Below are positions 14,411 to 43,883 of a DNA stretch of 64,000 nucleotides, piece by piece. The DNA is taken from assembly GCF_024757985.1 (NCBI RefSeq), contig NZ_CP103289.1, positions 1-64,000 on the forward strand, read 5' to 3'. The notes under the pieces were generated by a model. It made no database searches and was not told the origin of the DNA. It worked only from the letters and a program-made list of their open reading frames with translations. A program made the translations under genes and the position numbers. The stretch's first letter is position 1; each line of letters begins with the position of its first letter. Origin of the DNA: Cellulomonas sp. NS3. GTDB taxonomy: Bacteria; Actinomycetota; Actinomycetes; Actinomycetales; Cellulomonadaceae.

Positions 14411-15850
14411 ATGCCCGCCGACCGAGATGCAGTGGACGTGCGCCGCTCCGCGACGACCGTGTCCGCCCACGTCGCACGCGCTCCGGCGCCCGCGACGTCG
14501 GACACGGCTACGGTCTCGAGCCTTCTGGGCGTGTCTTCCGTGCGCGGTACCGCCGGCCGGACGGGTGCGGAGGGCGACCATGTGCCGGGCCGGGTCCGGG
14601 TGGTCGGCCTCAGCCGTGACCTCTCCGGGCCCAGGGGCATGACGCACCTGCAGCGCAGCGCCGGGAACGGGGCTGTGAGTCGACTGGTCGCGGCGCACTC
14701 CGTTGTGCAACGTCAGGACGTCGACAGCGCGGGCACGCTGGACGAGCGGTACCAGTCAGCGCTGCGCTCCGCTGACTCCACCGGCGACTATCGGACGGCG
14801 GCCGAGCTCCTCAACGGGTTCAGTCGCGACGACATCGCCAGCAGGCTCGCCGCTCTCACCGACGAGCAGGTGTCCTACTTGCACCTCGGCGCCACCGGCA
14901 ACCCCAACGTCGGACCGGGGTCCCAGGTCGCCCAGCTCACGGCCCCCGGCGAGCCGCGGGCCTCCACCGTCGGCCCCACGAGCAGCACAGGCACGACGTC
15001 CGCGGGTCCGGCACAAGGATCTGTGCCCGCTGCGACAGGCCTCACACCGGAGCAGATCGCCGCGATGACGCCGACCGAGCGGATGATCGAGGCCTTCGCG
15101 CGCGCCCGCATCGACACGGCACTGCGCGAGAGGCTCCTTCAGGTGTTCACACCGGAGACCTTTGTCGTCGCCGTCGTGTCGTTCCTCATCGCCTTCGGGG
15201 CGTCGCAGGTCACGCCCGTCGGCTGGGCGGCGGACGTGGCGATCCTGCTCACCGTCGTCTTCACGGGTGTCGCGCTGCTGCGTGCGATCGACCACCTCAT
15301 GGGCTTTGCGGCAGCGCGGAATGCGACGACGGAGGCGGACCTCGACGCGGCAGGCATGGAGTTCTCGCACGCCGTCGCCGGCCTCTCGGTCGACGCCCTG
15401 ATCCTGCTCCTCACGCGTCGCATCGCGCCGGCCGCGGGCGGCGGCGGTCCACCGCCCGCGCTGTCGGGCTTCGTCTTCGCGGGGCGCAACGGAGAGCTCG
15501 TGATGATCGCGGTCGACACGGTGCCGGTCGCGGTGGCCGGGGAGGTGGGCATCGCCAGCGGCGGGCTCATGTCGATGTCCGGACGCGGCGGTCGTCGTGG
15601 TGGCGGTCATGACGACGACCACGACGAGTACGAGGACATGCCGCGCCGTACACGGATCAGCGACGGCAACAAGTCCGAGCTCCAGGAGTCCGGCTGGCTC
15701 AGGGGACGGCTGCCCGACGTCGAACGGCGCCGGGAGTTCATGGAGTGGCTCCAGCGCGGGCACGAGATCGGGGAGCCTCACCAGCACCTGCGTCCCGGAT
15801 CCCGGGAGGCTGAGGCCGCGCTCCGCGACTTCCTGCTCGAGAACCCGTGA
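14411..15850 (+). CDS. Large protein with LQRSAGN motif and two TM helices (possible injection-system or polymorphic-toxin-type cargo)
   Basis: 479 residues from the ATG at 14411, chosen because AGGGGAAGG sits 6 bases upstream; an in-frame ATG at 14267 is less likely. The N-terminal ~100 residues are low-complexity and contain LQRSAGNGAV at 80-89 followed by VVQRQ (98-102). Similar LQRxAGNxAV tags are, to my knowledge, frequent in actinobacterial proteins associated with extracellular contractile injection systems and DUF4157. Residues about 205-245 form a linker. Two hydrophobic helices follow at about 250-297 (VVAVVSFLIAFGASQV and VAILLTVVFTGVALL), with further hydrophobic and glycine-rich segments up to about 395. 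A charged C-terminal domain ends HLRPGSREAEAALRDFLLENP minus its last residues. No known catalytic motif is recognised. A second protein with the same tag lies at 42720-43883. Confidence 0.7.
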   Translation: MPADRDAVDVRRSATTVSAHVARAPAPATSDTATVSSLLGVSSVRGTAGRTGAEGDHVPGRVRVVGLSRDLSGPRGMTHLQRSAGNGAVSRLVAAHSVVQRQDVDSAGTLDERYQSALRSADSTGDYRTAAELLNGFSRDDIASRLAALTDEQVSYLHLGATGNPNVGPGSQVAQLTAPGEPRASTVGPTSSTGTTSAGPAQGSVPAATGLTPEQIAAMTPTERMIEAFARARIDTALRERLLQVFTPETFVVAVVSFLIAFGASQVTPVGWAADVAILLTVVFTGVALLRAIDHLMGFAAARNATTEADLDAAGMEFSHAVAGLSVDALILLLTRRIAPAAGGGGPPPALSGFVFAGRNGELVMIAVDTVPVAVAGEVGIASGGLMSMSGRGGRRGGGHDDDHDEYEDMPRRTRISDGNKSELQESGWLRGRLPDVERRREFMEWLQRGHEIGEPHQHLRPGSREAEAALRDFLLENP

Positions 15851-15940
15851 CGTGCGGGAGCTGCTCGGGGTCCGTCCGGCTCACCCCGTCGGCTCTTGCC
15901 GCTGGACGCGACCGGTGGCCGTGACGCATCCTCACACCAC

Positions 15941-15981
15941 GGAGGGCCGCTCCCGGGGGTGAGTCCCGGGAGCGGCCCTCC
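15941..15981. terminator. Strong bidirectional terminator
   Basis: A perfect 17-bp inverted repeat, GGAGGGCCGCTCCCGGG (15941-15957) against its complement (15965-15981), flanks a 7-base loop. Imperfect CAC/GTG extensions lie outside. It sits between two convergent genes, the LQRSAGN protein (plus) and the GH9 cellulase (minus), so it can serve both. Confidence 0.8.
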
Positions 15982-16030
15982 GCTGTGTGCTGCCGCCCGC
16001 GCCGGCGTGATCCTGACGCGGACGCCAGGT

Positions 16031-19474
<3,444 letters not shown>

Positions 19475-20404
19475 TCAGAGGGTCCCGCGGTCCGTCCGGT
19501 CCTCGTCGCCCGTGCGGTCGGGCGCCGTCTCGACCACCGGGTCGGGGATCTCGCCCGTCGCCGGGACGATCGGAGCGACGGCCGTCGTGTCCGTCAGCTC
19601 CTCGTCCGCGCCGCCGAGGCCCGCGTCGGGCTTCTTCGACGCCGAGCGGCGCGTCGTCGCCTTCTTCGTGGCCTCGCTGACCTTCTCGGTGAGGTCCTCG
19701 CGCGCCTCGGTGACCTTCTCGGCCGCCCGCTGCGCCGCCTCGCGGCTCTTCGCGACCGTCACGCCCGCCGCCTCGCCGACGGCCTCCGCGGCGCCGCCCA
19801 CGCGGTCCGTGAGGTCCTCACGGGCATCGTGCGCCCGGGTGCGGAGCCCGTTGCTCGACGTGTCGGCCGACGTCGGCTCCCACGGCTCGGCCCACGGGTC
19901 GGTCTGCGCGCGCGAGCGGGTCCACGCGGCGAACGCCGCCCCGGCACCGGCGACGCCCGCGAGGATCCAGAAGATCTTCGCCCCGCGATGCGACTTCTGC
20001 GGTGCGGTGGCCTCGGCGGCCTTCTCCGCGATGGCGCCCGCCTTGACGGCGGCGGCGTTCACGGCGGCGACGACGCTCGGGATGAGCTCGTCGACGAGCT
20101 TGTCGTGCGCGGTGTCGATCGCGGGCGACGCGGCCTCGGCGGCGCGCTCCACGCGCGGGACGGCGGCCTTGAGGCTCTCCTTGTAGAGGTGCTCGATGCG
20201 CGGCACGATCCACTCGAGCGCGGCCTCGGCCTTGGGCGTGCCCCACTCCTTGGCGTGCGCGGCGACTCCTGCGGCCTGTCCGGCTGCCTCGGCGGCCTGG
20301 ACCTTCGCGGCGGCGGCGAGCACAGCCGCCTTCTCTGCGGCCTGGAGCTTGAGCTTGTCCGTGTCCACGGACTCGAGATTCGGGCGTCGGATGGCGAAGG
20401 TCAT
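19475..20404 (-). CDS. Coiled-coil single-pass membrane protein, unknown function
   Basis: A 309-residue protein starting MTFAIRRPNLESVDTDKL. Residues 15-150 are Ala/Glu/Lys-rich amphipathic helix. A short hydrophobic helix, IFWILAGVAGAGAAFAAW, lies at about 165-182. The C-terminal half is again Ala/Glu/Arg helical, with repeated segments of the form AREDLTDRV and AREDLTEKV, and ends in an acidic tail. The overall look is that of stress- or envelope-associated coiled-coil proteins such as YtxH-like families, but I do not recognise a specific family. It is transcribed away from the neighbouring ppiA gene. The ATG at 20404 was preferred because the conserved-looking sequence begins there. Confidence 0.75.
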   Translation of the reverse strand: MTFAIRRPNLESVDTDKLKLQAAEKAAVLAAAAKVQAAEAAGQAAGVAAHAKEWGTPKAEAALEWIVPRIEHLYKESLKAAVPRVERAAEAASPAIDTAHDKLVDELIPSVVAAVNAAAVKAGAIAEKAAEATAPQKSHRGAKIFWILAGVAGAGAAFAAWTRSRAQTDPWAEPWEPTSADTSSNGLRTRAHDAREDLTDRVGGAAEAVGEAAGVTVAKSREAAQRAAEKVTEAREDLTEKVSEATKKATTRRSASKKPDAGLGGADEELTDTTAVAPIVPATGEIPDPVVETAPDRTGDEDRTDRGTL

Positions 20405-20636
20405 GTCCACTCCCCGGTTCTGCGGCTGGGTCGGCTGCGTTAGCCCCACACTCTGCCACCAGACCGGTCGACACGCAGGTCCCGGGCCCGAACGGGCGCC
20501 GCCGCGGCCGCGGTCCTGGCCTGGGTGTTCGCCGCCGGCGTACCCCTAGCGCGCTCGTGCTCGCCCCCGCGAGGGCACGCCTGGGCGGCTGCCCGCTCCC
20601 CGCGCAGGCGCGCCGCTGCGTGGGAAGATGGGCGGC

Positions 20637-21176
20637 ATGTTCGCGACACTGCACACGACCGCCGGTGACATCCGGATCGAGCTCTTCCCGAACCACGCGC
20701 CGAAGACGGTGGAGAACTTCACCGGCCTCGCGACCGGGAGCAAGGCGTGGAAGGACCCGAAGACGGGCGCGGAGAGCAGCGCGCCGCTGTACGACGGCGT
20801 CATCTTCCACCGCGTGATCCCCGGCTTCATGATCCAGGGCGGCGACCCGCTCGGCACCGGCACGGGCGGCCCGGGCTACAGCTTCGACGACGAGATCCAC
20901 CCCGAGCTGCAGTTCGGCGAGCCGTACCTGCTCGCGATGGCGAACGCCGGCCTGCGCCGCGACCCGATCACCGGCAAGACCGGCGGCACCAACGGCTCGC
21001 AGTTCTTCGTCACGGTCGTCCCGACGCCGCACCTGAACGGCAAGCACACCATCTTCGGCAAGGTCGCGGACGACGCGAGCCGCAAGGTCGTCGACACGAT
21101 CGCCGCGACGCCCACGAGCCGCGGCGACCGCCCTGTCGAGGACGTCGTCATCAGCTCGGTCACGATCGAGGACTGA
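20637..21176 (+). CDS. ppiA: Cyclophilin-type peptidyl-prolyl cis-trans isomerase
   Basis: A 179-residue cytoplasmic cyclophilin that speeds proline isomerisation during folding. Recognisable elements are GDIRIELFPNHAPKTVENF, the catalytic arginine/phenylalanine segment VIFHRVIPGFMIQGGDP, NGSQFFVTVVPTPHLNGKH and the closing TIFGKV. The start is taken at the ATG 20637, because the only purine-rich site (GGGAAG, 20622-20627) is about 10 bases from it but directly abuts the alternative ATG at 20628. Its place before a rhomboid gene, crgA and the pkn cluster matches the conserved actinobacterial layout near dnaA. Confidence 0.95.
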   Translation: MFATLHTTAGDIRIELFPNHAPKTVENFTGLATGSKAWKDPKTGAESSAPLYDGVIFHRVIPGFMIQGGDPLGTGTGGPGYSFDDEIHPELQFGEPYLLAMANAGLRRDPITGKTGGTNGSQFFVTVVPTPHLNGKHTIFGKVADDASRKVVDTIAATPTSRGDRPVEDVVISSVTIED

Positions 21177-21193
21177 GCGGTCCCGATCCCCGC

Positions 21194-22057
21194 ATGAGCG
21201 CCGACCAGCCTGCCGCTGCGCCCACCGGCCCGCCCGAGGGTCCGCCCGTCTGCCCGCGTCACCCGGACCGTGTGTCCTACGTGCGCTGCCAGCGGTGCGG
21301 CCGTCCGACGTGCCCCGAGTGCCAGCGGCAGGCTGCCGTCGGCGTCCAGTGCGTCGACTGCGTCGCCGAGGCCGCGCGCGCGACGCCCGCGAACCGGACG
21401 ATCTTCGGCGGGACGGTCCGCGCCGGCCGCCCGGTCGTGACGATCGCCATCATCGCGGTGTGCGTCGTGAGCTACGTGCTCCAGCAGGTCAGCTCCGAGT
21501 GGACGCTGCGGTGGGCGTTCTGGCCGGCGGCCGGCGAGGTCGAGCCGTGGCGGTTCCTGACGGTCGCGTTCCTGCACTCCCCCGCCGGCGTCATCCACAT
21601 CGTCTTCAACATGCTCGCGCTGTGGATGGTCGGTCCGTTCCTCGAGCAGGCCCTCGGCCGCGCACGGTTCGCGGCTCTGTACGGCCTGAGCGCCGTGGCC
21701 GGCTCGGTCGGCGTGCTGCTGCTCGCGTCGCCGCTCGAGCAGTCCTGGTACACCCTCACCGTGGGCGCCTCGGGCGCCGTCTTCGGGCTGTTCGGCGCGG
21801 TGTTCGTCGTGATGCGCCGGATGCGGCGGGACGTCCGCGGCATCGCGGTGGTGATCGGCCTGAACATCGTCATCGGCTTCGTGCTGCCCGACATCGCGTG
21901 GCAGGCCCACCTCGGCGGGCTCGTCGTCGGCGCCGCGCTCGCCGCGGCCTTCGCCTACGCCCCGCGGGAGCGGCGCACCGCCGTCACCGTCGGTGCCCCT
22001 GTGCTGGTCGGGCTGCTCCTCGTGGGGCTCGCGTTCGCGAAGTACGCCCTGGTCTGA
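21194..22057 (+). CDS. Rhomboid family intramembrane serine protease
   Basis: A 287-residue membrane protease that cleaves transmembrane substrates. The N-terminus (about 15-55) is a cysteine/histidine-rich zinc-finger-like module (CPRHPDRVSYVRCQRC, then CPEC and CVDC). Six hydrophobic segments follow. The catalytic serine is Ser193 in VGASGAVFGLFG and the partner histidine is His239 in AHLGGLVVGA. An HIVFNMLALW segment in TM2 supplies the usual oxyanion-side histidine/asparagine. It starts 17 bp after ppiA, so the two are probably cotranscribed. Actinobacterial rhomboids next to ppiA usually have this N-terminal finger. Substrates are unknown. Confidence 0.93.
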   Translation: MSADQPAAAPTGPPEGPPVCPRHPDRVSYVRCQRCGRPTCPECQRQAAVGVQCVDCVAEAARATPANRTIFGGTVRAGRPVVTIAIIAVCVVSYVLQQVSSEWTLRWAFWPAAGEVEPWRFLTVAFLHSPAGVIHIVFNMLALWMVGPFLEQALGRARFAALYGLSAVAGSVGVLLLASPLEQSWYTLTVGASGAVFGLFGAVFVVMRRMRRDVRGIAVVIGLNIVIGFVLPDIAWQAHLGGLVVGAALAAAFAYAPRERRTAVTVGAPVLVGLLLVGLAFAKYALV

Positions 22058-22079
22058 CCCGATTTCCCCAACGTTCCGC

Positions 22080-22127
22080 ACAGGTGGTGAATTACACCTG
22101 TGTAGTTGTCCACAGAGATGTCCACCG
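22080..22127. promoter_or_regulatory. Inverted repeat and DnaA box between rhomboid gene and crgA
   Basis: ACAGGTG (22080-22086) and CACCTGT (22095-22101) form a 7-bp inverted repeat with an A/T-rich 8-base spacer. A perfect DnaA box TTGTCCACA follows at 22106-22114, and an ATGTCCACC near match lies at 22118-22126. The region lies past the 3' ends of both flanking genes, so a promoter role is unlikely. Protein binding (DnaA) is inferred only. Confidence 0.4.
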
Positions 22128-22316
22128 CTGGGGACGAAGAACACGTTGCCGCAGGTCAGGGCGCTGAAAACGTCCTATGACCGAGGATCTGCCTGTGGGT
22201 TCCGGTCGCGTGCGTGGGGACGGATGGGGCATTCGTGGGGAACGTCGCCCGCCGACCTGTCGAGGGCGACGCGGGCCGCCGACGCACACCTCCGTCGGGC
22301 CGCGAGGCCTAGAGGC

Positions 22317-22562
22317 TCAGCGCCAGCGCGTCGTGAGGGCGAAGCCCGCGAGGATCAGGGCGAAGCCGATCGCGAGGTTCCACTGCCCGATGCCCGGGAC
22401 GGGGTACTCCGAACGCATGATGTACGTGACGACGATCCACACGAGGCCGAGGATCATCAGGCCGAGCATCACGGGCACCAGCCACCGCGGGCTCACCTGG
22501 GGGCCGCTTGCGGCGGGCGGCGGCGTGTAGGCCGCCTTCTTGCGGTTCTTCGACTCGGGCAC
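22317..22562 (-). CDS. crgA: Cell division protein CrgA
   Basis: CrgA is a small actinobacterial membrane protein that helps recruit divisome components and, in Streptomyces, restrains septation. The 81-residue product starts at GTG 22562 (MPESKNRKKAAY). It has a short basic cytoplasmic N-terminus, then two transmembrane helices (about 28-50 and 57-77) separated by the tight RSEYPVPGIGQWN loop typical of the family, and ends TTRWR. It is transcribed divergently from the DUF881 gene with 101 bp between them, which must hold both promoters. Position and sequence fit the conserved cluster. Confidence 0.93.
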   Translation of the reverse strand: MPESKNRKKAAYTPPPAASGPQVSPRWLVPVMLGLMILGLVWIVVTYIMRSEYPVPGIGQWNLAIGFALILAGFALTTRWR

Positions 22563-22663
22563 GGCTGCTCCTGTTCCAGCGGTACGGCAGGCCGGGGCAC
22601 GTCGGCACCGACCCGCCAGAATGTGGCTTAGCGTAGTGGCGAGATCGCCGGAGAGGAGCACGA

Positions 22664-25108: not shown

Positions 25109-25260
25109 AGACCGGCCCTCCCGGGGACAGGGCTGCGTCCGCGCGGCTCCGGGCCGGCGCGTACCGGCGTCGTGCCACCGCATCACGCACCGCAGCGCGA
25201 CGAAGGCTCCGAACCCTCGCGGGTCGTGTGCGGACCTCGCGTCGAGGACGCGCCGGTGGG

Positions 25261-33059: not shown

Positions 33060-33066
33060 GGCGGCG

Positions 33067-33573: not shown

Positions 33574-33582
33574 ACCGGCCGT

Positions 33583-34624: not shown

Positions 34625-34707
34625 GCGCGAGTGGCGGAACGGCAGACGCGCTGGCTTCAGGTGCCAGTGTCCGAAAGGGCGTGGGGGTTCAAATCCCCCC
34701 TCGCGCA
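34625..34707 (+). tRNA. leuX: tRNA-Leu (anticodon CAG)
   Basis: An 83-nt class II tRNA. The acceptor GCGCGAG pairs with CTCGCGC, the D-arm is TGGCGGAACGGCAGACGC, and the anticodon loop TTCAGGT lies in a CTGGC/GCCAG stem. The long variable arm is TGTCCGAAAGGGCG and the T-arm GGGGG-TTCAAAT-CCCCC. CCA is not encoded. It decodes CUG. Its 3' flank is duplicated twice further downstream. Confidence 0.96.
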
Positions 34708-34783
34708 CAGGTGGGTGGTTCCGAAAAGAACCGCCTGAGCGGTACCGAAACTCCCGGTCAGAGTCTCTGGCCGGGAGTTTTCG
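34707..34783 (+). repeat. tRNA-Leu flanking repeat, copy 1 (includes terminator hairpin)
   Basis: The segment begins ACAGGTGGGTGGTTCC at the last base of the tRNA and ends with AAACTCCCGG (34748-34757) paired with CCGGGAGTTT (34771-34780), the tRNA terminator. Two further copies of the whole ~75-bp segment lie at 41824-41898 and 42586-42660, in the same orientation but without any tRNA sequence. Confidence 0.8.
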
Positions 34784-34830
34784 CGCTTCCCGGGGCGCGT
34801 TGGGCGGTTCGGCGGCGCTCGCGGACGCCG

Positions 34831-34864
34831 CCGAGCCCTGTCGAGGGGCCTCGACAGGGCTCGG
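34831..34864. repeat. REP-like perfect palindrome
   Basis: CCGAGCCCTGTCGAGG (34831-34846) and its exact complement (34849-34864) are separated by only two G residues. Palindromes of this type (GAGCCTGTCGA-like) are dispersed in many actinobacterial genomes. Here it sits between the tRNA-Leu terminator and the 3' end of the transposase gene, so it could also end minus-strand transcription. Confidence 0.65.
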
Positions 34865-34974
34865 TGTGGCGGTTTGGGCTATACGAGATGCTGCGCGGGC
34901 ACGCTGACGCCGGCGTGGTGGTTCGCGTACCCCGGTGGCTGGCCGAGGTGGTCAGTGGCTGGTGCTCGGCCGCT

Positions 34975-36609
34975 CTACTCGCGGAAGGGCCTGCGGCGAC
35001 CTCGGGTCCAGGTGTGGCGGTCGAGGGGCACGGTGGACGGCTCTTCGCCGAGCTCGACCTGCCAGGGGTCGGGCAGGTGCCGGGCGAGGTGCCAGCCGTG
35101 GAGCCGGTCGACGTTGTGCGCTGCGAGGGTGATCGCCAGGAGCAGGGTGGTGGCGATCAGTCCGGGGACGCGGAAGTAGCCGCGGTTGACGTTGCGGACC
35201 TGGTAGCGCAGCTGAGCGTTGAGCCCTTCGATGAGGCTACGACGGTTGAACGACAGCGCCCACCGAGTCGACTGCCACGCCAGCGGCTGGCGGTCGCGCT
35301 CGAGCTCGGAGTCGCGCACCGTGACCGTCTTCCCACAGGCGCACGCGCCCCCACGAACGCAGCGAGCGGTGGGCAGGTGTCGTCCCAGCCGCATCGACGC
35401 CGGGGTGTTCGGGCAGCGCAGGTGCCCGGCGAGGGCGGGTCCCTTCCACCGCTGGCTGCCGCGTTCGTCGCGCCGACGGGTTAGCGGGGTGAACCGGTAG
35501 GCGTCCCGCTTGTCGAACAGCTCGCGGGCGCGGGCCTTCTCGGCGGCGCTCTCGCCGATCTTGGGCGGCTCGAGGTGTCGGAGGGGATCGGGCAACGCGT
35601 CGGAGTACAGCGCGCCGTCAATCCACAGTGACCCGGTGATCGGGCCGGGGCGCACGCCGCGTTGGCTGGAGTGCAGGTCCATGGTCATCGTGATCCCGCG
35701 CTCGCGTAGCGGCCGCGCGAGGTTCACCGCGCGTGAGGTCGTGTAGCCGCGGTCGAGCAGGACCTCGTTGACGCCCCGCAGGGCATCGAGAATCCCCAGA
35801 GCGGCACCCGCGCGGTCCCGGACTCCCGGGCGCAGGGCGAGGCCGGCGGCCAGCTGAGGGAGCGGTTCTCCGGCGGGTTCGGGTGCGTAGGTCGCGATGT
35901 GCGCCTCGTAGCCGAAGTAGAGCTCGGTGGGCCGCCGGTCCGTGCTGGTGCGCTTGGCCCAGCGCGCGTCCCTGTCAGCGGCACGCCGATCGTGGGCGTC
36001 CGCCGCGGGGCTCTGGGCGCGGGCCCGGTAGGCGGACTCGATGTCGGTGCCGTCGATGGCCACGACGCTTGGTGGCGTCCAAGCGGACGGCATGCTCGCC
36101 TGGACCAGGCCTGTGGCGACCTCATCCAGGCTCGCGGCGGTGAAGGGACATCCGTCGGGGCAGTCGTCGACCTCACCGGTCGCCTCGTCCGCGGTCAGCT
36201 CGTGGTTGTGACCCACAGAGAAGCCCGCTCCCATCGCTTCCGTCAAGGCGTGGAACCCGGACAGGACGCATCGGTACCGCACCACGCTCCCCGGCGGGAA
36301 GCCGAGCGCGAACCTCTCGCTCGGCGACATCGACCACAACGTCCGCGTGACGCCGGCGATCGTCATCGCCGGCGGACGCCCGAGAGCGTGCAGCATCATC
36401 GCCGCCGCAACCGCATCCAGTGGCAGTGCGCGGTGACGACCGACCGTGCGGGTCCGGGACACGACGAGCCGGTTGACCACCTCGCGATCGGCCCAGGCTC
36501 GGGCTCGCCTGACCTTCTGTGCGGTGGACAACACGGGTGGGGTGTAGACCACGCGGCTGACACCGGTAGACGAGGTCATGGGCCTGGCCTCGATGGTGCG
36601 GCGCTTCAT
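34975..36609 (-). CDS. DDE transposase of a recombinase-coupled element
   Basis: 544 residues from the ATG at 36609. It reads as an IS4/IS1182-like DDE transposase. The candidate catalytic triad is Asp186 (AIDGTDIESAYRAR), Asp286 (VLLDRGYTTSRAV) and Glu461 (RSLIEGLNAQLRYQ). The middle holds a zinc-knuckle-like CVRGGACACGKTV segment and, earlier, CPDGCPF. The ATG overlaps the stop of the upstream recombinase-like gene (ATGA), which is unusual because most IS transposases are expressed alone. The frame is intact, so the protein may be active. No flanking terminal inverted repeats were recognised by eye. The exact IS family is uncertain. Confidence 0.8.
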   Translation of the reverse strand: MKRRTIEARPMTSSTGVSRVVYTPPVLSTAQKVRRARAWADREVVNRLVVSRTRTVGRHRALPLDAVAAAMMLHALGRPPAMTIAGVTRTLWSMSPSERFALGFPPGSVVRYRCVLSGFHALTEAMGAGFSVGHNHELTADEATGEVDDCPDGCPFTAASLDEVATGLVQASMPSAWTPPSVVAIDGTDIESAYRARAQSPAADAHDRRAADRDARWAKRTSTDRRPTELYFGYEAHIATYAPEPAGEPLPQLAAGLALRPGVRDRAGAALGILDALRGVNEVLLDRGYTTSRAVNLARPLRERGITMTMDLHSSQRGVRPGPITGSLWIDGALYSDALPDPLRHLEPPKIGESAAEKARARELFDKRDAYRFTPLTRRRDERGSQRWKGPALAGHLRCPNTPASMRLGRHLPTARCVRGGACACGKTVTVRDSELERDRQPLAWQSTRWALSFNRRSLIEGLNAQLRYQVRNVNRGYFRVPGLIATTLLLAITLAAHNVDRLHGWHLARHLPDPWQVELGEEPSTVPLDRHTWTRGRRRPFRE

Positions 36610-37571
36610 CGCCGCACCATCGAGGCGAACACCTCGTGCTCGGGCTGCGGGGCCATGAACGGCATCACGTGGCCGAAGATCTTCCACGACGCGACGCCGG
36701 CGATCCGGGCGAGCTCTCCCAGGTGCACCCCGTGCTCGAGGTGGTCCTTGACCCAGGTCACACGTAGCCGGCTCAGGCGCAGGCGCGGGGCGTCCGACGG
36801 GAGCTCGATGTTTTGCAGGAGCTTCGACAGGCGCGAGCGATCCCAGTCAGCAGCGGCGTAGCCGAGGATCAACGACCCGGGGTCGTCCTCTCGGATGCCG
36901 CGCAGGGTGCCGTCGTGCGGTGGGCCGATCGGGATCACGCGCGCGTGCTGACCGGACACGGCAAGACACAGGAACCCGTGCCGCTCGACGAGGTCATGGG
37001 TCGACACACGCCACGTCTCACGCGGGTACAGGCCTGCGCCGAGTCCGAGGGCGAGGAAGGACTGAAGCCGGCGCCGCTGGACTGGGGTGCGCTGCTGGCC
37101 TGCGACTTCGAGCAAGCGAGTGACCTCCTCGGCGGTGTAGGGAGCGATGCGCTGGTTGGCGCGGAGCCGCTCCTCGGGTGGCTCCCACGGGGCCTTCGTC
37201 GTGACCGCGGCCCCGAACCGGCGTAGATCGGAGCGTCGCGTCGCTCGAGACGGCTCTGACAGGTGGGCGCAGCCGACCTGGATGTACCGGCTGACGACGT
37301 CCGGGGTGAACACCTGCTCGCGGTCCAGCGGGAGCCCTTCGCGATGGGTCCACACGAGGAACTGCGACAGCGTCCGCATCGCCTCGACGGCTCTGCGGTC
37401 ATCGACGGGGTGCACGTCGACCGCGACGGCGCGCGCGAACTCGGCGACCGGTGCCCAGTCCTCGGGGCGCAGCGCCTCGGGGATGTAGCCGGCCACTGCC
37501 TGCTCGGGCGTGAGCGGGCCGGCGGCGTGTCGGTTGACGGGAGTAGTTCTGGAATCTGAAGATGGGCGCAC
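36606..37571 (-). CDS. Tyrosine-recombinase-like protein coupled to the transposase
   Basis: 321 residues from GTG 37571, which has GAGGAG upstream. Residues about 50-130 look like an N-terminal SAM-like core-binding domain (TLSQFLVWTHREGLPLD). The C-terminal half resembles a phage-integrase catalytic fold (SFLALGLGAGLYPRETWRV, then LSRLRVTWVKDHLEHGVHL). However, where a tyrosine recombinase has the YxH nucleophile region, this protein reads WKIFGHVMPF, so phenylalanine seems to replace the tyrosine. The box II histidine is replaced by serine in LSRLR. It may therefore be a DNA-binding or architectural partner rather than an active recombinase. It overlaps the transposase start by four bases. 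Confidence 0.7.
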   Translation of the reverse strand: MRPSSDSRTTPVNRHAAGPLTPEQAVAGYIPEALRPEDWAPVAEFARAVAVDVHPVDDRRAVEAMRTLSQFLVWTHREGLPLDREQVFTPDVVSRYIQVGCAHLSEPSRATRRSDLRRFGAAVTTKAPWEPPEERLRANQRIAPYTAEEVTRLLEVAGQQRTPVQRRRLQSFLALGLGAGLYPRETWRVSTHDLVERHGFLCLAVSGQHARVIPIGPPHDGTLRGIREDDPGSLILGYAAADWDRSRLSKLLQNIELPSDAPRLRLSRLRVTWVKDHLEHGVHLGELARIAGVASWKIFGHVMPFMAPQPEHEVFASMVRR

Positions 37572-37696
37572 GAAAGCTCCTCACGACGCGGGGTTCTCTT
37601 TCGAGCAGCGGCGGGAACCGCTGTGAAGGCGATCGGGCCGGGATGGCTGTCCCGGCCTTTCGCATGTCAGAGGGTCGGCGCCCTGCGCCGAGCGGG

Positions 37697-37930
37697 TCAG
37701 CCCATGGCGTTTCCGGCGTCCTCGGCGAGGGCGGCCGCCAGAAGGTCAGAGGCGAGAGCGCTGACGGGACGGTGCGTGGCTTGGGCGCGGGCGAACAGCG
37801 GCCCTGCCACGGCCGCGGGCATGCGGATCTCCACCCGCACCAGCTCGTGGGGCTTCAGGTCCCGAGGGCGCGACGAAGGTCGGCCGGCGCGCGCCGGGGG
37901 TACGTGGATCGAGCTGCCTGGCTCCTTCAT
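37697..37930 (-). CDS. Ribbon-helix-helix-like small protein
   Basis: 77 residues from the ATG at 37930, preceded by an excellent AGGAGGTGGGAG. After a basic Pro-rich N-terminus, the stretch ELVRVEIRMPAAVAGPLFA followed by RPVSALASDLLAAAL fits a ribbon-helix-helix fold, as in small repressors and antitoxins. It is encoded 125 bp upstream of the recombinase-like gene on the same strand. It is plausibly the regulator of the mobile unit, or an accessory DNA-binding factor of it. Confidence 0.6.
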   Translation of the reverse strand: MKEPGSSIHVPPARAGRPSSRPRDLKPHELVRVEIRMPAAVAGPLFARAQATHRPVSALASDLLAAALAEDAGNAMG

Positions 37931-38347
37931 CTCTCCCACCTCCTGTCTCGATTGGCCGCTGTGCGATGTAGCTCTGAGCCTCTTGTGAGGCGTCGCACGG
38001 CTGGTCAGACCGTCAGGAGTACGGTGGATCGATGAAGTTGTCGCTCGGCGCCACAGGCGAGATCGCCCGAGAAGTGACTCGGCTTGCCGCACCGCGGTAC
38101 GGGGCCGTGCTTGCACGCTAGCGCCGCCGGCGGAGATTCTGTCGGCGACGCGCCGCACGTGGGGCGGTGAGTATCGGAAACTTGGGAGCCACAACATGGT
38201 CTGGCCCGCACCGTGGGCGGCCAGAGCTCAGCTGCCCTGATCCCTCGAGATGCTGCACGGCCGCGCCGCCCACGGTTGGGAGCGACATGTATCGTCCGTC
38301 ACCAACCAGTGGCCTGTAGAACCGAGGTGGTGGCAGTCGGACTTCCT
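37931..38347. other. Gene-free stretch inside the tRNA-Leu island
   Basis: 417 bp with no ORF that looks like a gene. It contains an imperfect inverted repeat, CCGTGGGCGGCC at 38211-38222 against GCCGCCCACGG at 38265-38275, and the short direct repeat TTGGGAGC near 38183 and 38276. The composition changes from high GC on the left to lower GC on the right, so an insertion boundary may lie here. Confidence 0.4.
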
Positions 38348-39061
38348 CTAAGAAGTCGGGGTCTCCCGCATGCCGGCGATCGTTCGCTGAATCATTCGAA
38401 CCGCCTCTGGGGCGCGCGGGCTGTACAGCATCTCTCGCAGTGAGGGCGCATATTCTGGTGCGTCAAGGAAGGTCTGATACTCCAGCTCGTGGCTCTCAAC
38501 CACCTCGAGTGGCGCGTCGTCTTGGGAGCCGCAGGCCATCTCTACCCAGTCCGCTTGCTGTAGCGCCTCTAGCTCGACGCCCGATGTGGCGACCTCGAGA
38601 TCATCAATCTTCGGCGCGTGTCTAGTGAGATGAAATACGAGCCGATGCTGCAAATGCAAGCGACCTCCGGTGGAAAGCTGTGCGATGCGTGCGGTTCGCG
38701 GTAGTTCGGACACCTGGACGGTGGCGATCTCCATGAAATCCGCGACGTGAGTTGAGGTATCGCTGCGCAGGCCGGGCAATGGCATCACCTTGTTGCGATT
38801 GCGCCAACGTTCCGGATCGTCGAGGAGCTTCCGTGGCGACTCCGTGCGAACCTGAAGCACCGTGAGGCGCTCCCGCATTCCAGTCTTCTGGCGCATGCTA
38901 CATGGGTGCATAAAAACCATCACGGGCCCCGAGGTGAGATTTGGAAGCTCCACGCCGTCGAAGACGTCGCCCTGCTGATAGGGGAGCCAATTGGGCACAG
39001 CCCCCCGATAGTCGTAGAGATCTTCGACGTGCGGGAGGTCCTCGAGTCGAGCCGGCTCCAT
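38348..39061 (-). CDS. Hypothetical protein, third gene of a low-GC cassette
   Basis: 237 residues, not recognised. The N-terminal half has a compact beta-rich look (YRGAVPNWLPYQQGDVFDG, then VMVFMHPCSMRQK with a conserved-looking HPCSMR). The middle carries a hydrophobic strand pair (RLHLQHRLVFHLTRH) and the C-terminus is helical and acidic. There is no signal peptide or TM helix. It starts 2 bp after the stop of the HTH gene and must be cotranscribed with it. Codon use is visibly less GC-biased than in neighbouring housekeeping genes, suggesting transfer. The HPCSMR motif could be catalytic or metal-binding, but this is only a visual impression. Confidence 0.7.
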   Translation of the reverse strand: MEPARLEDLPHVEDLYDYRGAVPNWLPYQQGDVFDGVELPNLTSGPVMVFMHPCSMRQKTGMRERLTVLQVRTESPRKLLDDPERWRNRNKVMPLPGLRSDTSTHVADFMEIATVQVSELPRTARIAQLSTGGRLHLQHRLVFHLTRHAPKIDDLEVATSGVELEALQQADWVEMACGSQDDAPLEVVESHELEYQTFLDAPEYAPSLREMLYSPRAPEAVRMIQRTIAGMRETPTS

Positions 39062-39063
39062 CG

Positions 39064-39705
39064 TTATGAACGACGAACGATAGCTGGCATCCCGTCGTCG
39101 AAGACCACGACTTCGTCAGCTGACACCCAACGGGCGCGCCATTCTGGATCGATTCCGTCCAGCAGATCCTCGGCGCGAATATTCCCGGCGGCGAAATCGA
39201 GCAGTGTGCTCACGTTGGCGGCGGAGAGCAGATGGCGAATCGTGACAGTGTAGCCGTCGACAAGCCGAATGTTCATCCACGCGGCTGGTTCCGGGATCGC
39301 AAGGCGAACACGTAGGACGCGCATGAAAGCGAGGACTCGAGCGATGGAGGAACGGTTCTCGGCAGTGACGCCGCCCGCGTGACGCCACTTACGGATACCT
39401 GGGACCGAAACGGCAACGATTCGAGACAGGTCCACCCATGGCAGCCCGAATGTCGCCGCGATCTCGTCGAGGATCTCGGGAACCGACATGCGATTCGTAG
39501 CGCGAAACTCCATTTCGTACGCCGATTCGTAAAGGCTGTGATGATCGCTGGCTAGTTGATTGCCAAGCCGCCGGTGTGCGTGCCGAGTCTTACGCATGGC
39601 GACATCCAAATCCTGCCAGGACATATCGATGCTGTCCCAGCTGGTCCCCGGCGTGCTAGTTGCCTCACGTATTGCGTTCGGGCTCGTAAGAACGAGACTG
39701 CTCAT
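39064..39705 (-). CDS. HTH-containing protein, middle gene of a low-GC cassette
   Basis: 213 residues from the ATG at 39705, which overlaps the upstream stop (ATGA). Residues about 70-125 read as an Xre-like helix-turn-helix (ILDEIAATFGLPWVDLSRI, then VSVPGIRKWRHAGG). Xre-type antitoxins and some defence regulators have similar modules. The C-terminal part has a predicted alpha/beta segment (MNIRLVDGYTVTIRHLL, LLDGIDPEWRAR). It may autoregulate the cassette; repeated GTTACAG elements upstream of the first gene could be its sites. No specific family was recognised. Confidence 0.7.
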   Translation of the reverse strand: MSSLVLTSPNAIREATSTPGTSWDSIDMSWQDLDVAMRKTRHAHRRLGNQLASDHHSLYESAYEMEFRATNRMSVPEILDEIAATFGLPWVDLSRIVAVSVPGIRKWRHAGGVTAENRSSIARVLAFMRVLRVRLAIPEPAAWMNIRLVDGYTVTIRHLLSAANVSTLLDFAAGNIRAEDLLDGIDPEWRARWVSADEVVVFDDGMPAIVRRS

Positions 39706-40514
39706 CTGGTTTCCCCCTTGGGTTGCCTAAACAACTCCCGCGATGCTTCTGTGATGGACCACTGGAATATGCCGCCCACCGGCTCGTGAAGTTCTGCGAG
39801 CACCTGTTCTAGAGAGTCTGGGTCAAGCGGCGTGTGCTCGCCGGGCTCCCATGCGCTATCAACGTCGATTATGAAGACCGGTCCTTGTTCAATCTCTGCC
39901 GGAGCAAACGGGAGTGCGGCGTCAATAACCGTCCCGCCATCAAACTGCCCCGCATTGAAGGTGATAGTCCTCCCCGGACCGCTGCGGAACGTGGTGGACG
40001 ACCTATGACCCGAGACCTCGGCCTCAAGTGCCCCCGTCGCGCCCAAGAGATCCCGCCTCACCCACATCGACCAGTCTCCGTCCGGCGGTGCCGTGGGCGG
40101 TCGGACTTCATCGATGTACCGCAACCCCAATCGCTGAAGCGGTACGTTGCCTGCCGCCTGATGGAGCGCCTTGACGCAGATGGCCATTAGAGGCGCAAAG
40201 CTACTCGCAAACTCGACATAGGTGTTGCCAGACATGGCGAGACTGAGCGACGTCGCGTTGAGGGTGACGGTCGCCTGCCGATCGGTTGTCGTGGCTCGCA
40301 CCTGTGGGATGGTCGTCGCTTCCGGTCCACCGACGCTCGACATTGTGAAGGTGACCGCTTGCTCGATGGACAGCACAGGGAACGCTTCGCGGACTGCCTC
40401 GGCGAAGCGATCCCGGACTGGGTCGTCCTTGAGACGAGGCTCATAGCCGAACCGCATCTCGGCGGTAACGATCGCCAGAGGAGCACTTGGGAAGACCTCA
40501 CGGCCGAGGTACAT
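39702..40514 (-). CDS. TIGR04255 family protein, first gene of a low-GC cassette
   Basis: 270 residues starting MYLGREVFPSAPLAIVTAEM. The opening (FPSAPLAIVTAEMRFGYEP), the strand around RLGLRYIDEV and the overall length fit the sporadically distributed TIGR04255 family, whose function is unknown. Sporadic distribution and frequent presence on islands are typical of defence-associated genes. It is cytoplasmic, with no catalytic motif visible. It leads an operon of three tightly coupled genes (4-bp overlap, then 2-bp gap). Base composition is lower in GC than the backbone. Confidence 0.7.
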   Translation of the reverse strand: MYLGREVFPSAPLAIVTAEMRFGYEPRLKDDPVRDRFAEAVREAFPVLSIEQAVTFTMSSVGGPEATTIPQVRATTTDRQATVTLNATSLSLAMSGNTYVEFASSFAPLMAICVKALHQAAGNVPLQRLGLRYIDEVRPPTAPPDGDWSMWVRRDLLGATGALEAEVSGHRSSTTFRSGPGRTITFNAGQFDGGTVIDAALPFAPAEIEQGPVFIIDVDSAWEPGEHTPLDPDSLEQVLAELHEPVGGIFQWSITEASRELFRQPKGETR

Positions 40515-40530
40515 GCGCGGGACCCGACCT

Positions 40531-40561
40531 CTGTAACAGGGAGTGATACTCGCACTGTAAC
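40531..40561 (-). promoter_or_regulatory. Repeated element upstream of the cassette (candidate operator)
   Basis: CTGTAAC occurs at 40531-40537 and 40555-40561, 24 bp apart. Between them lies the dyad-like AGTGATACTCGCACT (40542-40556). The region is 17-47 bp upstream of the first cassette start on the minus strand, where a promoter/operator is expected. The cassette's own HTH protein is the obvious candidate to bind it. Confidence 0.4.
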
Positions 40562-40650
40562 CACGGAGCGAGACTCTCGCCTAGGCTTCTCATGGAACTC
40601 TCACCCTTCTGCCAGTTGCGGTAGTGCCGCATGGGACGAAGTGGACGATC

Positions 40651-41634
40651 TCAGGTCCCCAGCGACTCGAGTGGTTCCCAGCGTCCTCGGATGACGCCGT
40701 CGTCGTCGGGGTTCACGGCTTCGATCAGAGGAGCGAACCCGTCGGCGTAGTCCGAACGCCACCACACCCGCGTCGCCGCGTCGAGAGTTGCACGGATGCG
40801 CGGCAGCTCCTCCGCTGACAAGCAGTCGTCGTGCAGGCGGCCGTCGGGTGATTGCCAGACGACCGTGCCCTCGACGTCGTCCGGGTCTTCCGTGTCGAGG
40901 TGGGGCATCACCGCGGCCTTATCCGTCGTCAGGTCGGGCCACACCCACACCAGGCAGCGTGGGCGCAGCGCCGGTCGGGCGCCTTCTGCGGTCACCCGGT
41001 GCCAGCGGGTCCACGCGGCACGCTCCTCCACGAGGACCCCGCCGTGCAGCCGGACGAGCTCGTCGATGCGTGCCCAGAAGGCGTCGTCGATCGGTGTGTG
41101 CTGCGTGCGCCACCGCTCGAGCTCGGCGTCGTCGCGGGTGTGCGGTGAGACCTTCCAGTCCTCGGGGAAGAGGCTGTCTGCGGCCGTCGCCGCGACGGCT
41201 GCAGGGCACGGACGATCGGTGGCGATGAACATGTAGACGTCCCAGCCGACGCTCACGGCCATCTGGCCCTCCGCCTCGAGCAGGCACCAGACGCGCTTCC
41301 CGTCGCCGCGGAGCATGCCGCGCACGATCTCCCGCGCTGCGGCGATGTCGATCGTCGCGCCGTCGTACAGGCCCACGAGGCCGGGACCGAAGATCTGGAC
41401 CAGGACGTCGTCCGGGCTGTACGGGGTGTCTTCCGGGCTGTGAGAAACGCTGGGGTCGCGGACGGCCAGGCGAGTGACTCCGACCTCGCGAGCGAAGGCC
41501 TCGACGGCGTCGAGGTACGCGGCCTCGAGCGGTCCCTCGTCGCTGACGTTGTCGACCTCACCGATATATGCGCCGGACGGGTCGCGGTCTCGTGGGTCGT
41601 ACTGGGTGATCCGGTACGTGTGAGGCAAGGGCAC
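40651..41634 (-). CDS. Conserved actinobacterial hypothetical protein
   Basis: 327 residues from GTG 41634, chosen because the start MPLPHTYRITQYDPRDRD matches the look of a protein family I recall from Streptomyces and relatives; an in-frame start at 41757 would add 41 low-complexity residues. The protein is soluble and acidic, with VEAFAREVGVTRLAVRDPSV, VWCLLEAEGQMAVSVGWDVY and a C-terminal WWRSDYADGFAPLIEAVNPD segment. The middle could be an immunity- or barnase-inhibitor-like alpha/beta fold, but nothing is firmly recognised. It lies between the low-GC cassette and the second tRNA-Leu flank copy. GC is high, like the backbone. Confidence 0.7.
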   Translation of the reverse strand: MPLPHTYRITQYDPRDRDPSGAYIGEVDNVSDEGPLEAAYLDAVEAFAREVGVTRLAVRDPSVSHSPEDTPYSPDDVLVQIFGPGLVGLYDGATIDIAAAREIVRGMLRGDGKRVWCLLEAEGQMAVSVGWDVYMFIATDRPCPAAVAATAADSLFPEDWKVSPHTRDDAELERWRTQHTPIDDAFWARIDELVRLHGGVLVEERAAWTRWHRVTAEGARPALRPRCLVWVWPDLTTDKAAVMPHLDTEDPDDVEGTVVWQSPDGRLHDDCLSAEELPRIRATLDAATRVWWRSDYADGFAPLIEAVNPDDDGVIRGRWEPLESLGT

Positions 41635-41808
41635 GGTCGACTGCTCGTCTCTTGATCGCGTGGGCGAGGCCGCCGCAGCGACGAGCTCGTGAGGGACACA
41701 CCACCATCGTGGAGCACCGAACGTCCATCGAGATCGTGGTGTGCCTGGCCCCGTCACAGAGGTGTGCCGGAGCCAGCGTCAGGTAGAGCGTCGAGCGAGG
41801 CCAGTGAG

Positions 41809-41844
41809 TTTCGGGAACCACCCACAGGTGGGTGGTTCCCGAAA
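41809..41844. repeat. Perfect 16-bp hairpin at the second tRNA-Leu flank copy
   Basis: TTTCGGGAACCACCCA and its exact complement surround a CAGG loop. The right arm is the first part of the tRNA-Leu flanking repeat. The left arm is absent next to the tRNA itself but is present, imperfectly paired, at copy 3. This looks like a recombination or att-type palindrome, or a strong terminator for the convergent gene. Confidence 0.6.
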
Positions 41845-41898
41845 GAACTGCCTTGGTAGTACTGAAACTCCCGGTCAGGGTTCTCTGGCCGGGAGTTT
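41824..41898 (+). repeat. tRNA-Leu flanking repeat, copy 2
   Basis: ACAGGTGGGTGGTTCC through AAACTCCCGG (41865-41874) and CCGGGAGTTT (41889-41898) repeat the tRNA-Leu 3' flank at 34707-34783 with a few substitutions. No tRNA body precedes it. Confidence 0.8.
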
Positions 41899-41946
41899 TG
41901 GCGTTGTGGGGGTGATCACCTCGATCCCCGGTGGAGGGTGCTGACA

Positions 41947-42237
41947 GTGACGATCCGCGTCCGTCTGATGAACGAGTACACCATCGAGTGGCCGCTCTGG
42001 CTCCCCGGTGGGCCGGCTGAGGAAGGTGCCCTGCCGGTCACCGGGCACCTTGCCGGCGAGCTCAAGGCATGGGCGCGGGCATTCAACGAGCACTACGACT
42101 ACCAGCACGGTTGGGACGACCCGCAGCGTGCTGACGCGCACGCTCAGGAAGCAGTGCGCCTCCAGCGCGCGCTTCAGACCGACCTCGGCGACGACTACGA
42201 GGTCGTGCTCGAGCTCTGGGAGGTCTCCGACCGGTAG
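41947..42237 (+). CDS. Small conserved hypothetical protein
   Basis: 96 residues from GTG 41947, selected because GGAGGG lies 8 bases upstream; GTG 41938 would leave no spacing. The sequence (VRLMNEYTIEWPLWLP, then HLAGELKAWARAFNEHYDYQHGW, then DYEVVLELWEV) is soluble and compact. Proteins of this type are seen scattered in actinobacteria without assigned function, to my recollection. It stands alone between two flank-repeat copies, so it may be cargo of the smaller repeat-bounded segment. Confidence 0.65.
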   Translation: MTIRVRLMNEYTIEWPLWLPGGPAEEGALPVTGHLAGELKAWARAFNEHYDYQHGWDDPQRADAHAQEAVRLQRALQTDLGDDYEVVLELWEVSDR

Positions 42238-42719
42238 GAGTACCAAGCCGCCTCGTTCGTGCAAGGAGCGGCGGCTGGGCCCGGAGTGAGGCATGCCTGG
42301 TGCATACGGGTGATGCGGATCGGTCAGCTGAACGGCCGCTCCCGGCACAGGGAGAAGGTGAGGCGAAGCTGATCGAGCAGGTGACTCGAGAGACAGGACC
42401 GGCACATCCCCGTGATCGACGGGGTCAGCTGCGAGGAGCTCACGCACGGGAAAGTCAGTGGACGCTGCCAGCTGATCGCTCTCTGAGCGAGTGATCAAGG
42501 GTGTGCCGGGACGACGCTCGCAGGTGTGCCTGGGCCCGCGGGGGGTCCTGTGTCGCCTGAGGTCAGCGGGTTTCGGGAACCACCCACAGGTGGGTGTCTC
42601 CCGAGAGGGATTGCCCTCGTAGTACTGAAACCCCCGGTCAGGGTCTCTGGCCGGGAGTTTGGCGTTGTAGGGCGTGCCGCTGACTTTGATTCAGGTCCGC
42701 AGCGAGAGCCTGCACGCCG
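42238..42719. other. Gene-free stretch containing flank-repeat copy 3
   Basis: 482 bp separate the small hypothetical from the second LQRSAGN protein. Apart from the repeat at 42570-42660, I see nothing: no ORF with coding look and no RNA gene. Confidence 0.5.
42586..42660 (+). repeat. tRNA-Leu flanking repeat, copy 3
   Basis: ACAGGTGGGTGTCTCC through AAACCCCCGG (42628-42637) and CCGGGAGTTT (42651-42660). Similarity to copy 2 extends upstream to about 42570 (GTTTCGGGAACCACCC), so copies 2 and 3 are closer relatives of each other than of copy 1. Confidence 0.8.
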
Positions 42720-43883
42720 TCACGGCACGGCGGCGGCGCGCAGCTCGGCCTCGAGCCGCGGCTTGAGCCACGCGAGGAACCGGTCCAGCATCGCGGGCGT
42801 GTGGGGCCACGTGCGGTGCGACGGACCGAAGACCGACCCGAACGCGGCGCCGGACGTGCCCGCGCCGTACAGGTCGTTGAACCGGTCGATGCGGGCGATC
42901 GTCGGTGCCCGCCAGGCGGCGTCCCACGTCACGGACGTCCCGCTCTGCTGGTACGTGAGCCCGTTGGCGGCGCAGAAGGCGCGGAACCGTCGGCTGACCC
43001 CCGTTACACCGGAGGGTGCGCCGCCGTAGTAGGCGCGCAGGGCTGCCGAGAGCGTCTGCGTCGGCTGCGTCGACCACTGGTCCTGGAGTGCGAAGCCGTC
43101 GACGTCGCCCAGCAGGTCCTGCTCGGGGGCCGACATGCGCCAGTAGTCGTCGGCGCTCGGCGGCACCGGGTTGCTCGGCGCGCGCGAGTCCGGGTTGCCC
43201 TCCTCGGCCTTCGTGAGCCAGACGGAGGCGATGCCGACGTCGGCCGCCCACGACGCCGGGTCGATGTTGGGGACGCCGAAGGAGCTGTAGGGCGCCGCTG
43301 TCGTGGGATGGGCGAGCGCGTCGAGCGTCAGGAAGAGGTGCCCTGCGTCGATCTGCTCACCGTTCGGCAGCCCGAGGTAGGGCGACGGGTTGTCGCCGAC
43401 GCCGTTCTCGTCGGCGTGGGCGGTCAGGCGCGCCTGCGCGTCGGGGGCGACGGCACCGAGGTTGCGCGGCACCACGGAGAAGCCCGCACCCCCCGGCGAG
43501 AGGTTCGGGACGACGTCGGACGCGTGCGCGCGCGGGATCAGCTGCTCGAACGCCATGCCGCTGTACCACCGGACGCGGATGCGGGTCAGCACGTCCTGGG
43601 GGCTGTCGGTCGGGTTCGCGCGCTCGACGGCCTCGACGTCGGCGACGAACGTGGCGAACGGGATGATCGCGGCCGCCCCGGTCAGGCTGGTGGGCCCGGC
43701 GAGCGTGCCGAGGTCGCGCTGGAGCGTGAGGAGCTGGTCGGGGGAGCGCTGACGGATCGCGCCCGCGACCGCAGCGTTGCCCGCCGACCGCTGCAGGCGC
43801 AGGAGCGGAGCGCCGCGCGGTGCCTCGCGCGGCCGGGGGAACGGCGGGAGCTGCTCGGCGGGCCGATCCGACGGTGTGCGCAC
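42720..43883 (-). CDS. Second protein with N-terminal LQRSAGN motif
   Basis: 387 residues from GTG 43883, preceded by GGGAGG. The N-terminus is Pro/Arg-rich and contains LQRSAGNAAV at 30-39 followed by LLTLQRD, the same tag as in the protein at 14411-15850. The remainder is a soluble, Trp/Tyr-rich globular region without TM helices. It includes IRVRWYSGMAFEQLIP, GEQIDAGHLFLTLDALAHP and a C-terminal MLDRFLAWLKPRLEAEL. The GHLFLTLD histidine/aspartate region could belong to an enzyme, but no family is recognised. Different C-terminal bodies on a common N-terminal tag is the pattern expected of cargo or effector proteins. It stands at the edge of the tRNA-Leu island. Confidence 0.7.
   Translation of the reverse strand: MRTPSDRPAEQLPPFPRPREAPRGAPLLRLQRSAGNAAVAGAIRQRSPDQLLTLQRDLGTLAGPTSLTGAAAIIPFATFVADVEAVERANPTDSPQDVLTRIRVRWYSGMAFEQLIPRAHASDVVPNLSPGGAGFSVVPRNLGAVAPDAQARLTAHADENGVGDNPSPYLGLPNGEQIDAGHLFLTLDALAHPTTAAPYSSFGVPNIDPASWAADVGIASVWLTKAEEGNPDSRAPSNPVPPSADDYWRMSAPEQDLLGDVDGFALQDQWSTQPTQTLSAALRAYYGGAPSGVTGVSRRFRAFCAANGLTYQQSGTSVTWDAAWRAPTIARIDRFNDLYGAGTSGAAFGSVFGPSHRTWPHTPAMLDRFLAWLKPRLEAELRAAAVP

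Follow-up and report, generated by a model that had tools for sequence, protein, structure and literature searches.

Otherwise unrelated effectors of type VI secretion systems carry N-terminal markers such as MIX and FIX. RIX effectors are likewise marked by a common N-terminal region on otherwise unrelated cargo of a contractile machine (excerpt of PMC10435454). Effectors of extracellular contractile injection systems (eCIS) have a polar disordered N-terminal leader, the eCIS signal peptide, that is thought to direct the loading of C-terminal toxin bodies (excerpts of PMC8213781 and PMC11297309), and selective effector association through N-terminal signals has been reported for Pvc15 (excerpt of PMC11495950). 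Polymorphic toxins with a PVC-metallopeptidase (DUF4157) domain are modular: a common N-terminal part serves delivery, and the toxin ends vary (excerpt of PMC3482391). In the SLP system of Streptomyces lividans, Sle1 is packaged in the particle and externalised after urea treatment; Sle2, a small DUF4157 protein, binds an N-terminal coiled-coil region of Sle1 and co-elutes with the tube initiator SlpT2 (excerpt of PMC13277306). Here we analyse the first 64,000 nucleotides (the window) of contig NZ_CP103289.1 of the actinobacterium Cellulomonas sp. NS3 (GCF_024757985.1), where two proteins, P0001 and P0003, carry a short N-terminal tag, LQRxAGNxAV.

We compared these proteins with the described systems. 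As in SLP, the machine concerned is an actinobacterial contractile injection system (CIS), and loci with tape-measure-like proteins and small DUF4157 neighbours mostly carry the tag. P0001 and P0003 differ from Sle1 and Sle2 in being unlinked to the CIS cluster, without a tape-measure region and without an adjoining adaptor; the N-terminal tag they have in common with most Sle1-type proteins. MIX, FIX and RIX belong to another machine and have another sequence, and our tag is much shorter; the likeness is one of analogy only. Whereas no specific conserved sequence was detected in the eCIS signal (excerpt of PMC11297309), the motif here is short and strongly conserved, and its genes are at a great distance from the operon. 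Unlike PVC-metallopeptidase toxins, 107 of the 159 tagged open reading frames (ORFs) scoring at least 14 bits lack a match to eCIS_core. The motif as spelled out was not found in the literature searched, which left subscription journals mostly uncovered, and an earlier description is possible. The excerpt of the Sle1/Sle2 paper (PMC13277306) names no such motif, nor does it appear in the excerpts of PMC8213781, PMC11126660, PMC3482391 and PMC12237407.

We propose that LQRxAGNxAV is the conserved part of the N-terminal loading signal of one clade of actinobacterial CIS, and that P0001 and P0003 are effectors of this clade. Judging from sequence comparisons, this is the likely explanation. The tag occurs in a genome with a CIS cluster, is co-distributed with one group of sheaths, and is present on tape-measure-like and on some toxin-like proteins. 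If the proposal is true, a short searchable motif makes effectors findable across whole genomes and not only in operons, and offers a natural tag for studying loading.

Tagged proteins and an injection-system cluster in one genome

The sequence-only reading of the window had noted LQRSAGNGAV followed by VQRQ in P0001, and LQRSAGNAAV followed by LQRD in P0003. Both pairs are present (Table 1), separated by nine and 14 residues respectively, and one regular expression for the tag, applied to all six frames of the window, matched only these two proteins. Both frames look coding (third-position guanine-plus-cytosine content of 0.87 in P0001 and 0.95 in P0003) and both have, by eye, a purine-rich stretch upstream of the start codon.

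The same reading called the two proteins orphan effectors. This label is wrong because the genome encodes a CIS cluster at about 3.62 Mb, with sheath, tube, spike and baseplate genes. The stretch that we read there (L005, 3.615–3.635 Mb) holds a LuxR-type regulator, a WHD+AAA ATPase and a tagged eCIS_core protein, together with the particle genes: sheath (family match at 3,621,535), two gp19 tubes, CIS_tube, spike (Phage_base_V), gp25 and Tail_P2_I. The eCIS_core protein carries GLARLQRAVGNQGV; its tag spans 904–927 and its core starts at 942 of the open frame, the profile match ending 14 residues before the core. Matches to eCIS_core (PF13699) in this genome number two, at 3,619,824 and 1,260,242. 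P0001 and P0003 lie more than 1.1 Mb from the cluster, even if the contig is circular. Among the marks of eCIS-associated effectors, an eCIS encoded in the genome is found in Cellulomonas sp. NS3; a DUF4157 domain within the protein or near the gene and an operon location are absent for both proteins; the shared tag, which follows a sheath group, is a candidate for the N-terminal loading signal.

A genome-wide search with a nine-row profile gave nine tagged ORFs at an expectation value (E) of at most 0.01, although these nine are the profile rows themselves: the profile started from four rows, the other five were added by reading weaker matches, and the count rests on those steps. The tags lie at 14.6, 43.7, 294.6, 450, 526.9, 1261, 3148, 3619.7 and 4700.7 kb, eight of them outside the CIS cluster. 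When the nine tagged bodies were compared, only the two DUF4157 proteins were alike (E ≤ 1e-3), so the view that P0001 and P0003 have unrelated bodies holds. At 1.26 Mb, distant from the cluster, a large open frame (L007:6612-11852) has both the tag and an eCIS_core domain of its own. Another tagged ORF, at 4.70 Mb (L088:4227-6296), has a C-terminal end weakly like M15 D-Ala-D-Ala carboxypeptidase (E 0.006, below the cut-off) and is a possible candidate for a wall-acting effector.

A conserved motif ahead of many bodies

At 12 bits or more, the tag profile matched 162 of the 9,613 ORFs in the fetched loci, a figure that is no background rate because the loci were mostly picked for tags or CIS genes, against none of the 9,613 ORFs when reversed and none when block-shuffled. 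Over 152 tags, L is conserved in 93%, Q in 98%, G in 99% and N in 99%, percentages inflated by a finding profile that itself favours these residues. The nearest start codon, counting those at least 20 residues away, lies a median of 36 residues upstream of the tag. In 73 of the 152 cases, a [VLIAM]Q[RP] triplet occurs in the 75 residues after the tag, compared with 53 of 490 stretches of 65 residues drawn at random from the same proteins.

In small DUF4157 proteins, the tag also recurs as a constant element a short way ahead of the eCIS_core domain. Clustering the bodies of the 107 tagged ORFs that lack eCIS_core gave 40 clusters: one with 62 members, which are presumably Sle1-type proteins, one of four, three of two and 35 singletons. 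The motif precedes all of these clusters and is not part of one ordinary globular domain. With sheath and tube genes also present, neither of the two outcomes that the sequence-only reading gave as refuting its idea was observed. No Pfam match over the cut-off covers the tag in the ORFs scanned, and the same holds for NCBIfam in the three proteins tried.

Co-distribution with one group of injection systems

We surveyed 296 genomes of the class with the same settings throughout, using a profile (A4) of 15 rows, all from Cellulomonas sp. NS3 (G000) and one congener (G001), three of them from eCIS_core ORFs. The absence of a tag in this survey is weak evidence because only part of the first-look candidates was scored. 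Tags were found in 32 genomes at E ≤ 0.01. At E ≤ 1e-3 there were 57 tags in 24 genomes: 20 just before eCIS_core, 10 in the vicinity of a CIS or core gene and 27 scattered. CIS_tube is present in 47 of the 296 genomes and in 21 of these 24. The scattered tags occur in 14 genomes, 11 of which have CIS_tube; at E ≤ 0.01, the proportion is 15 of 21 genomes. In Fisher tests that treat genomes or genera as independent, though they are related, and that leave out our own genome in three cases, this association was significant by genome (own genome left out, CIS_tube in 10 of 13, one-sided p = 7e-7), by genus (8 of 10 with scattered tags against 19 of 115, one-sided p = 5e-6) and by genus with the own genus removed (7 of 9, p = 2e-5). 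Conversely, 26 of the 47 CIS_tube genomes are tagged at E ≤ 0.01.

Some matches are doubtful. That of G226 (L105), which by eye reads as a histidine kinase, and that of G025 (L106), whose frame looks non-coding, are probably false, yet they were kept in the main counts and among the 107 ORFs and dropped in only one Fisher variant. Three genomes are tagged only at the looser cut: G050 and G141, with open frames of 28–29 residues, and G116 (E 0.0098).

The association is sharper when sheaths are considered. Sheaths encoded in the stretches surrounding CIS_tube were scored against our own. Among the 23 genomes whose sheath scores at least 543 bits (identity of 52.9% or above), 21 are tagged at E ≤ 0.01 and 19 at 1e-3. 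At 443 bits or less, 2 of 18 are tagged at E ≤ 0.01, both doubtfully (two-sided Fisher p = 4e-7 between the groups, for a cut chosen after the scores were known); the tags of G198, at the C-terminal end of the frame, and of G265 are the doubtful ones. On identity alone the separation is less clean: at least 52.9% in one group and, over shorter alignments, as much as 50.8% in the other. Tag status came from profile A2 for G001, G002, G003 and G006 and from A4 for the others, and G299 was counted as untagged, though local scoring gives a 12.4-bit tag in L110, presumably on the same contig. Stretches without a sheath (12 of 54) were left out; they concern the untagged G058, G063, G076, G192, G244 and G286, the tagged G139, G187, G205 and G230, along with the second stretches from G231 and G101. 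The tag thus goes with one subtype of sheath. Taken with the tagged eCIS_core proteins and the class-wide pattern, this bears out the view, in the sequence-only reading, that such tags are tied to contractile injection systems and DUF4157. One genome (G240) has two CIS loci (L073 and L230), the sheaths of both falling within the tagged group.

The same pattern is found within the genus, where among seven genomes sampled the tag and the own-type sheath occur together only in G000 and G001. The sheath of G001 is 98% identical to ours and its adaptor is 98% identical over 115 aligned residues. G001 has six tags, and the five tagged bodies other than the adaptor are without a match among the tagged bodies of our genome (P0001 and P0003 were compared with the tagged bodies of G001). 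Between these two genomes the machine is stable and the cargo changes, which is how a set of effectors behaves. In G002, G003 and G006 (L194, L193 and L195), the sheath is 44–45% identical to ours and there are no tags; an eCIS_core gene lies away from the CIS locus, and by eye the N-terminal part of its product that was read has no tag. G004 and G005 have neither CIS_tube nor tag, G004 having a weaker sheath match.

Tape-measure-like and toxin-like bodies

Sle1-type loci were collected by searching named genomes with four tape-measure-like proteins and two peptide patterns, keeping the best 80 of at least 90. They come from Streptomyces, Amycolatopsis, Micromonospora, Mycobacterium, Agromyces, Cellulomonas and others. 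The tag is present at 12 bits or more on 56 of the 80 Sle1-type proteins. A separate eCIS_core ORF occurs in 45 of the 80 stretches and is tagged in 42 of these, and a sheath is in the stretch for 53. At many loci, adaptor and Sle1-type protein are tagged neighbours. The collected proteins are similar to the published Sle1-type effectors in composition and, where compared, in their neighbouring genes. Sle1-type proteins were also seen outside Actinobacteria, in a metagenome-assembled genome of Anaerolineae (L155) and in Calothrix (L179 and L182), and the tag was not found in these three.

Several other tagged bodies are toxin-like. Pfam matches over the cut-off include a Scabin-like ADP-ribosyltransferase (L103, 6e-26) and GT4-conflict (L083, 5e-87), and a further scan gave PT-HINT/Hint_2 in one of eight ORFs (L071, PT-HINT 2e-7). 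The other such matches on tagged ORFs are OmpA (L096, 4e-11), SH3_3 (L104) and eCIS_core (L099). Matches below the cut-off were to a non-specific endonuclease (L085) and, in L069 and L074, to deaminase families.

A proposed loading signal and its alternatives

If the tag is a loading signal, it would work as follows. The clade usually encodes a small DUF4157 adaptor near the sheath, and tagged proteins with a disordered-looking N-terminus would be cargo that the particle of the 3.62 Mb cluster recruits in trans. The tag would bind a part of this particle, and the cargo bodies would be unrelated, fast-changing effector modules, among them P0001 and P0003, which would be loaded and act on target cells. 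Adaptor, tape-measure-like proteins and scattered cargo would have one docking partner in common, either a component of the particle or the ATPase that loads it. Our first guess is the tube initiator or the baseplate region contacted by Sle2, because a contact between adaptor and tube initiator has been published; our second is the neighbouring AAA ATPase, in view of the selective effector association reported for Pvc15. With less assurance, we lean towards a broader view: the motif would be a general, transferable loading code, most of the arsenal would be encoded by unlinked genes away from the operon, with rapid turnover between sister species, and operon-based surveys would have missed most cargo.

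A number of observations weigh against this proposal. The tag could be an element of the adaptor and not a cargo signal, given its place before eCIS_core. It is lacking at 12 bits in 24 of the 80 Sle1-type proteins, and Sle1 of S. lividans lies outside the loci compared. Among CIS_tube genomes, 21 of 47 are untagged at E ≤ 0.01, and G101 has a sheath of the tag-bearing group and no tag. One genome (G023, L104) is a real exception to the co-distribution: it has two adjacent tagged ORFs, one with the SH3_3 domain, and no match to sheath or CIS_tube, pointing to orphan use of the tag or to a lost machine. Just 5 of 30 scanned tagged ORFs have a Pfam match over the cut-off, one of them to eCIS_core, and no effector domain is recognised in P0001 or P0003 (Pfam up to E 1).

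The tag might instead bind a partner, either the small Sle2-type DUF4157 adaptor or fellow tagged proteins, the adaptor alone contacting the particle. This overlaps with our proposal, since the tag would still be a loading signal and only its partner would differ; the two are not exclusive. The binding of Sle2 to the N-terminal region of Sle1, its co-elution with the tube initiator, and the tagged neighbours at many loci fit such an arrangement. However, the adaptor is itself tagged, which makes a single shared partner the simpler solution, and neither P0001 nor P0003 is significantly similar to a Sle1-type ORF. We consider partner binding a minority possibility.

It seems improbable that the tag serves another export route or attachment to the envelope (for example as a peptidoglycan- or membrane-binding helix), linked to CIS by lineage only. 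The OmpA body, the SH3_3 domain in the CIS-negative G023 and the sub-threshold M15 peptidase match in our own genome would suit this role, but the tag follows the sheath group both within one genus and across the class, and several tagged bodies are toxin-like. Equally doubtful is a relic of descent from DUF4157 or tape-measure proteins whose other parts were lost or swapped, the tag now having no role: DUF4157 proteins do have the tag and most body clusters are singletons, yet an unused remnant would decay, whereas Q, G and N are kept while other positions vary, and the co-occurrence with one group of sheaths suggests that the tag is still in use.

Features of the window

Table 1. Coordinates of the tagged proteins, their elements and the repeats of the window.
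Feature	Position	Strand	Description
P0001, tagged protein	14411-15850	+	479 residues; body with hydrophobic helical stretch
P0001 tag LQRSAGNGAV	14648-14677	+	residues 80-89; translation, own-genome profile match
P0001 second short element VQRQ	14705-14716	+	residues 99-102; read in translation
P0001 hydrophobic stretch, possible membrane hairpin	15152-15319	+	residues 248-303; by eye
P0001 C-terminal small domain, possible effector domain	15644-15847	+	residues 412-479; low-confidence single-sequence model
P0003, tagged protein	42720-43883	-	387 residues, GTG start; soluble-looking by eye
P0003 tag LQRSAGNAAV	43767-43796	-	residues 30-39; translation, own-genome profile match
P0003 second short element LQRD	43713-43724	-	residues 54-57; read in translation
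tRNA-Leu downstream flank copies	34742-34780; 41823-41899; 42622-42660		sequence comparison in window

P0001 and P0003 have no Pfam match up to E 1, eCIS_core included. P0001 has no NCBIfam match up to E 1, its best match in the PDB is only at E 0.65, and it matches PHROGs at E 0.026; P0003 matches nothing in NCBIfam, the PDB or PHROGs. Neither body significantly matches a Sle1-type ORF, and no tape-measure-like region is found in them. Across 394 genomes of the class, with at most five or four candidates scored per genome, the P0003 body matched only itself; the P0001 body has two weak partial relatives there (E of about 5e-5, 29–31% identity, one frame with a stop). No relatives of the bodies were found in plasmids or viral contigs, and phages gave chance-level matches only. 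The C-terminal small domain of P0001 has no significant relatives in the plasmids, phages and viral contigs searched; a GH-E-like nuclease at this end was an idea by eye that we dropped, as nothing computed backs it.

The structure predictions called for by the sequence-only reading were run for both proteins as single-sequence models, with mean predicted local distance difference test (pLDDT) scores of 35 for P0003 and 49 for P0001, and fold searches with the P0001 model returned nothing at E ≤ 0.001. Because of these low scores and the lack of matches, we assign no fold to either protein. In P0001, low-confidence helices are predicted at 248–263 and 269–303, in the hydrophobic stretch, and residues 421–479 have a block-mean pLDDT of 65–87. 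The low-confidence models also place a helix over the tag (P0001 74–84 and 86–99, P0003 31–44), which lends weak support to a short helical docking motif.

The suggestion that both genes travel with integrating elements fared less well. The flank copies of the tRNA (transfer RNA)-Leu are real, but they do no more than adjoin P0003 at its 3' end, the last copy lying 60 bases past it, and P0003 is outside the repeat-bounded region. The tRNA-Ala remnant near P0001 is marginal, being one weak match of 22 bases and 91% identity at 14119-14140 (E 0.02). Of the six other tagged loci of this genome outside the CIS cluster (L007 and L088–L092), two, L089 and L092, have tRNA genes no more than 5 kb away. 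The evidence for mobility of tagged genes by tRNA elements is suggestive at most. As for the region at 34625-42660, a tRNA-Leu is followed by its flank copies, with an ORF between them (34975-36687) that weakly matches a DDE transposase, below the cut-off, and the whole looks like a tRNA-linked island.

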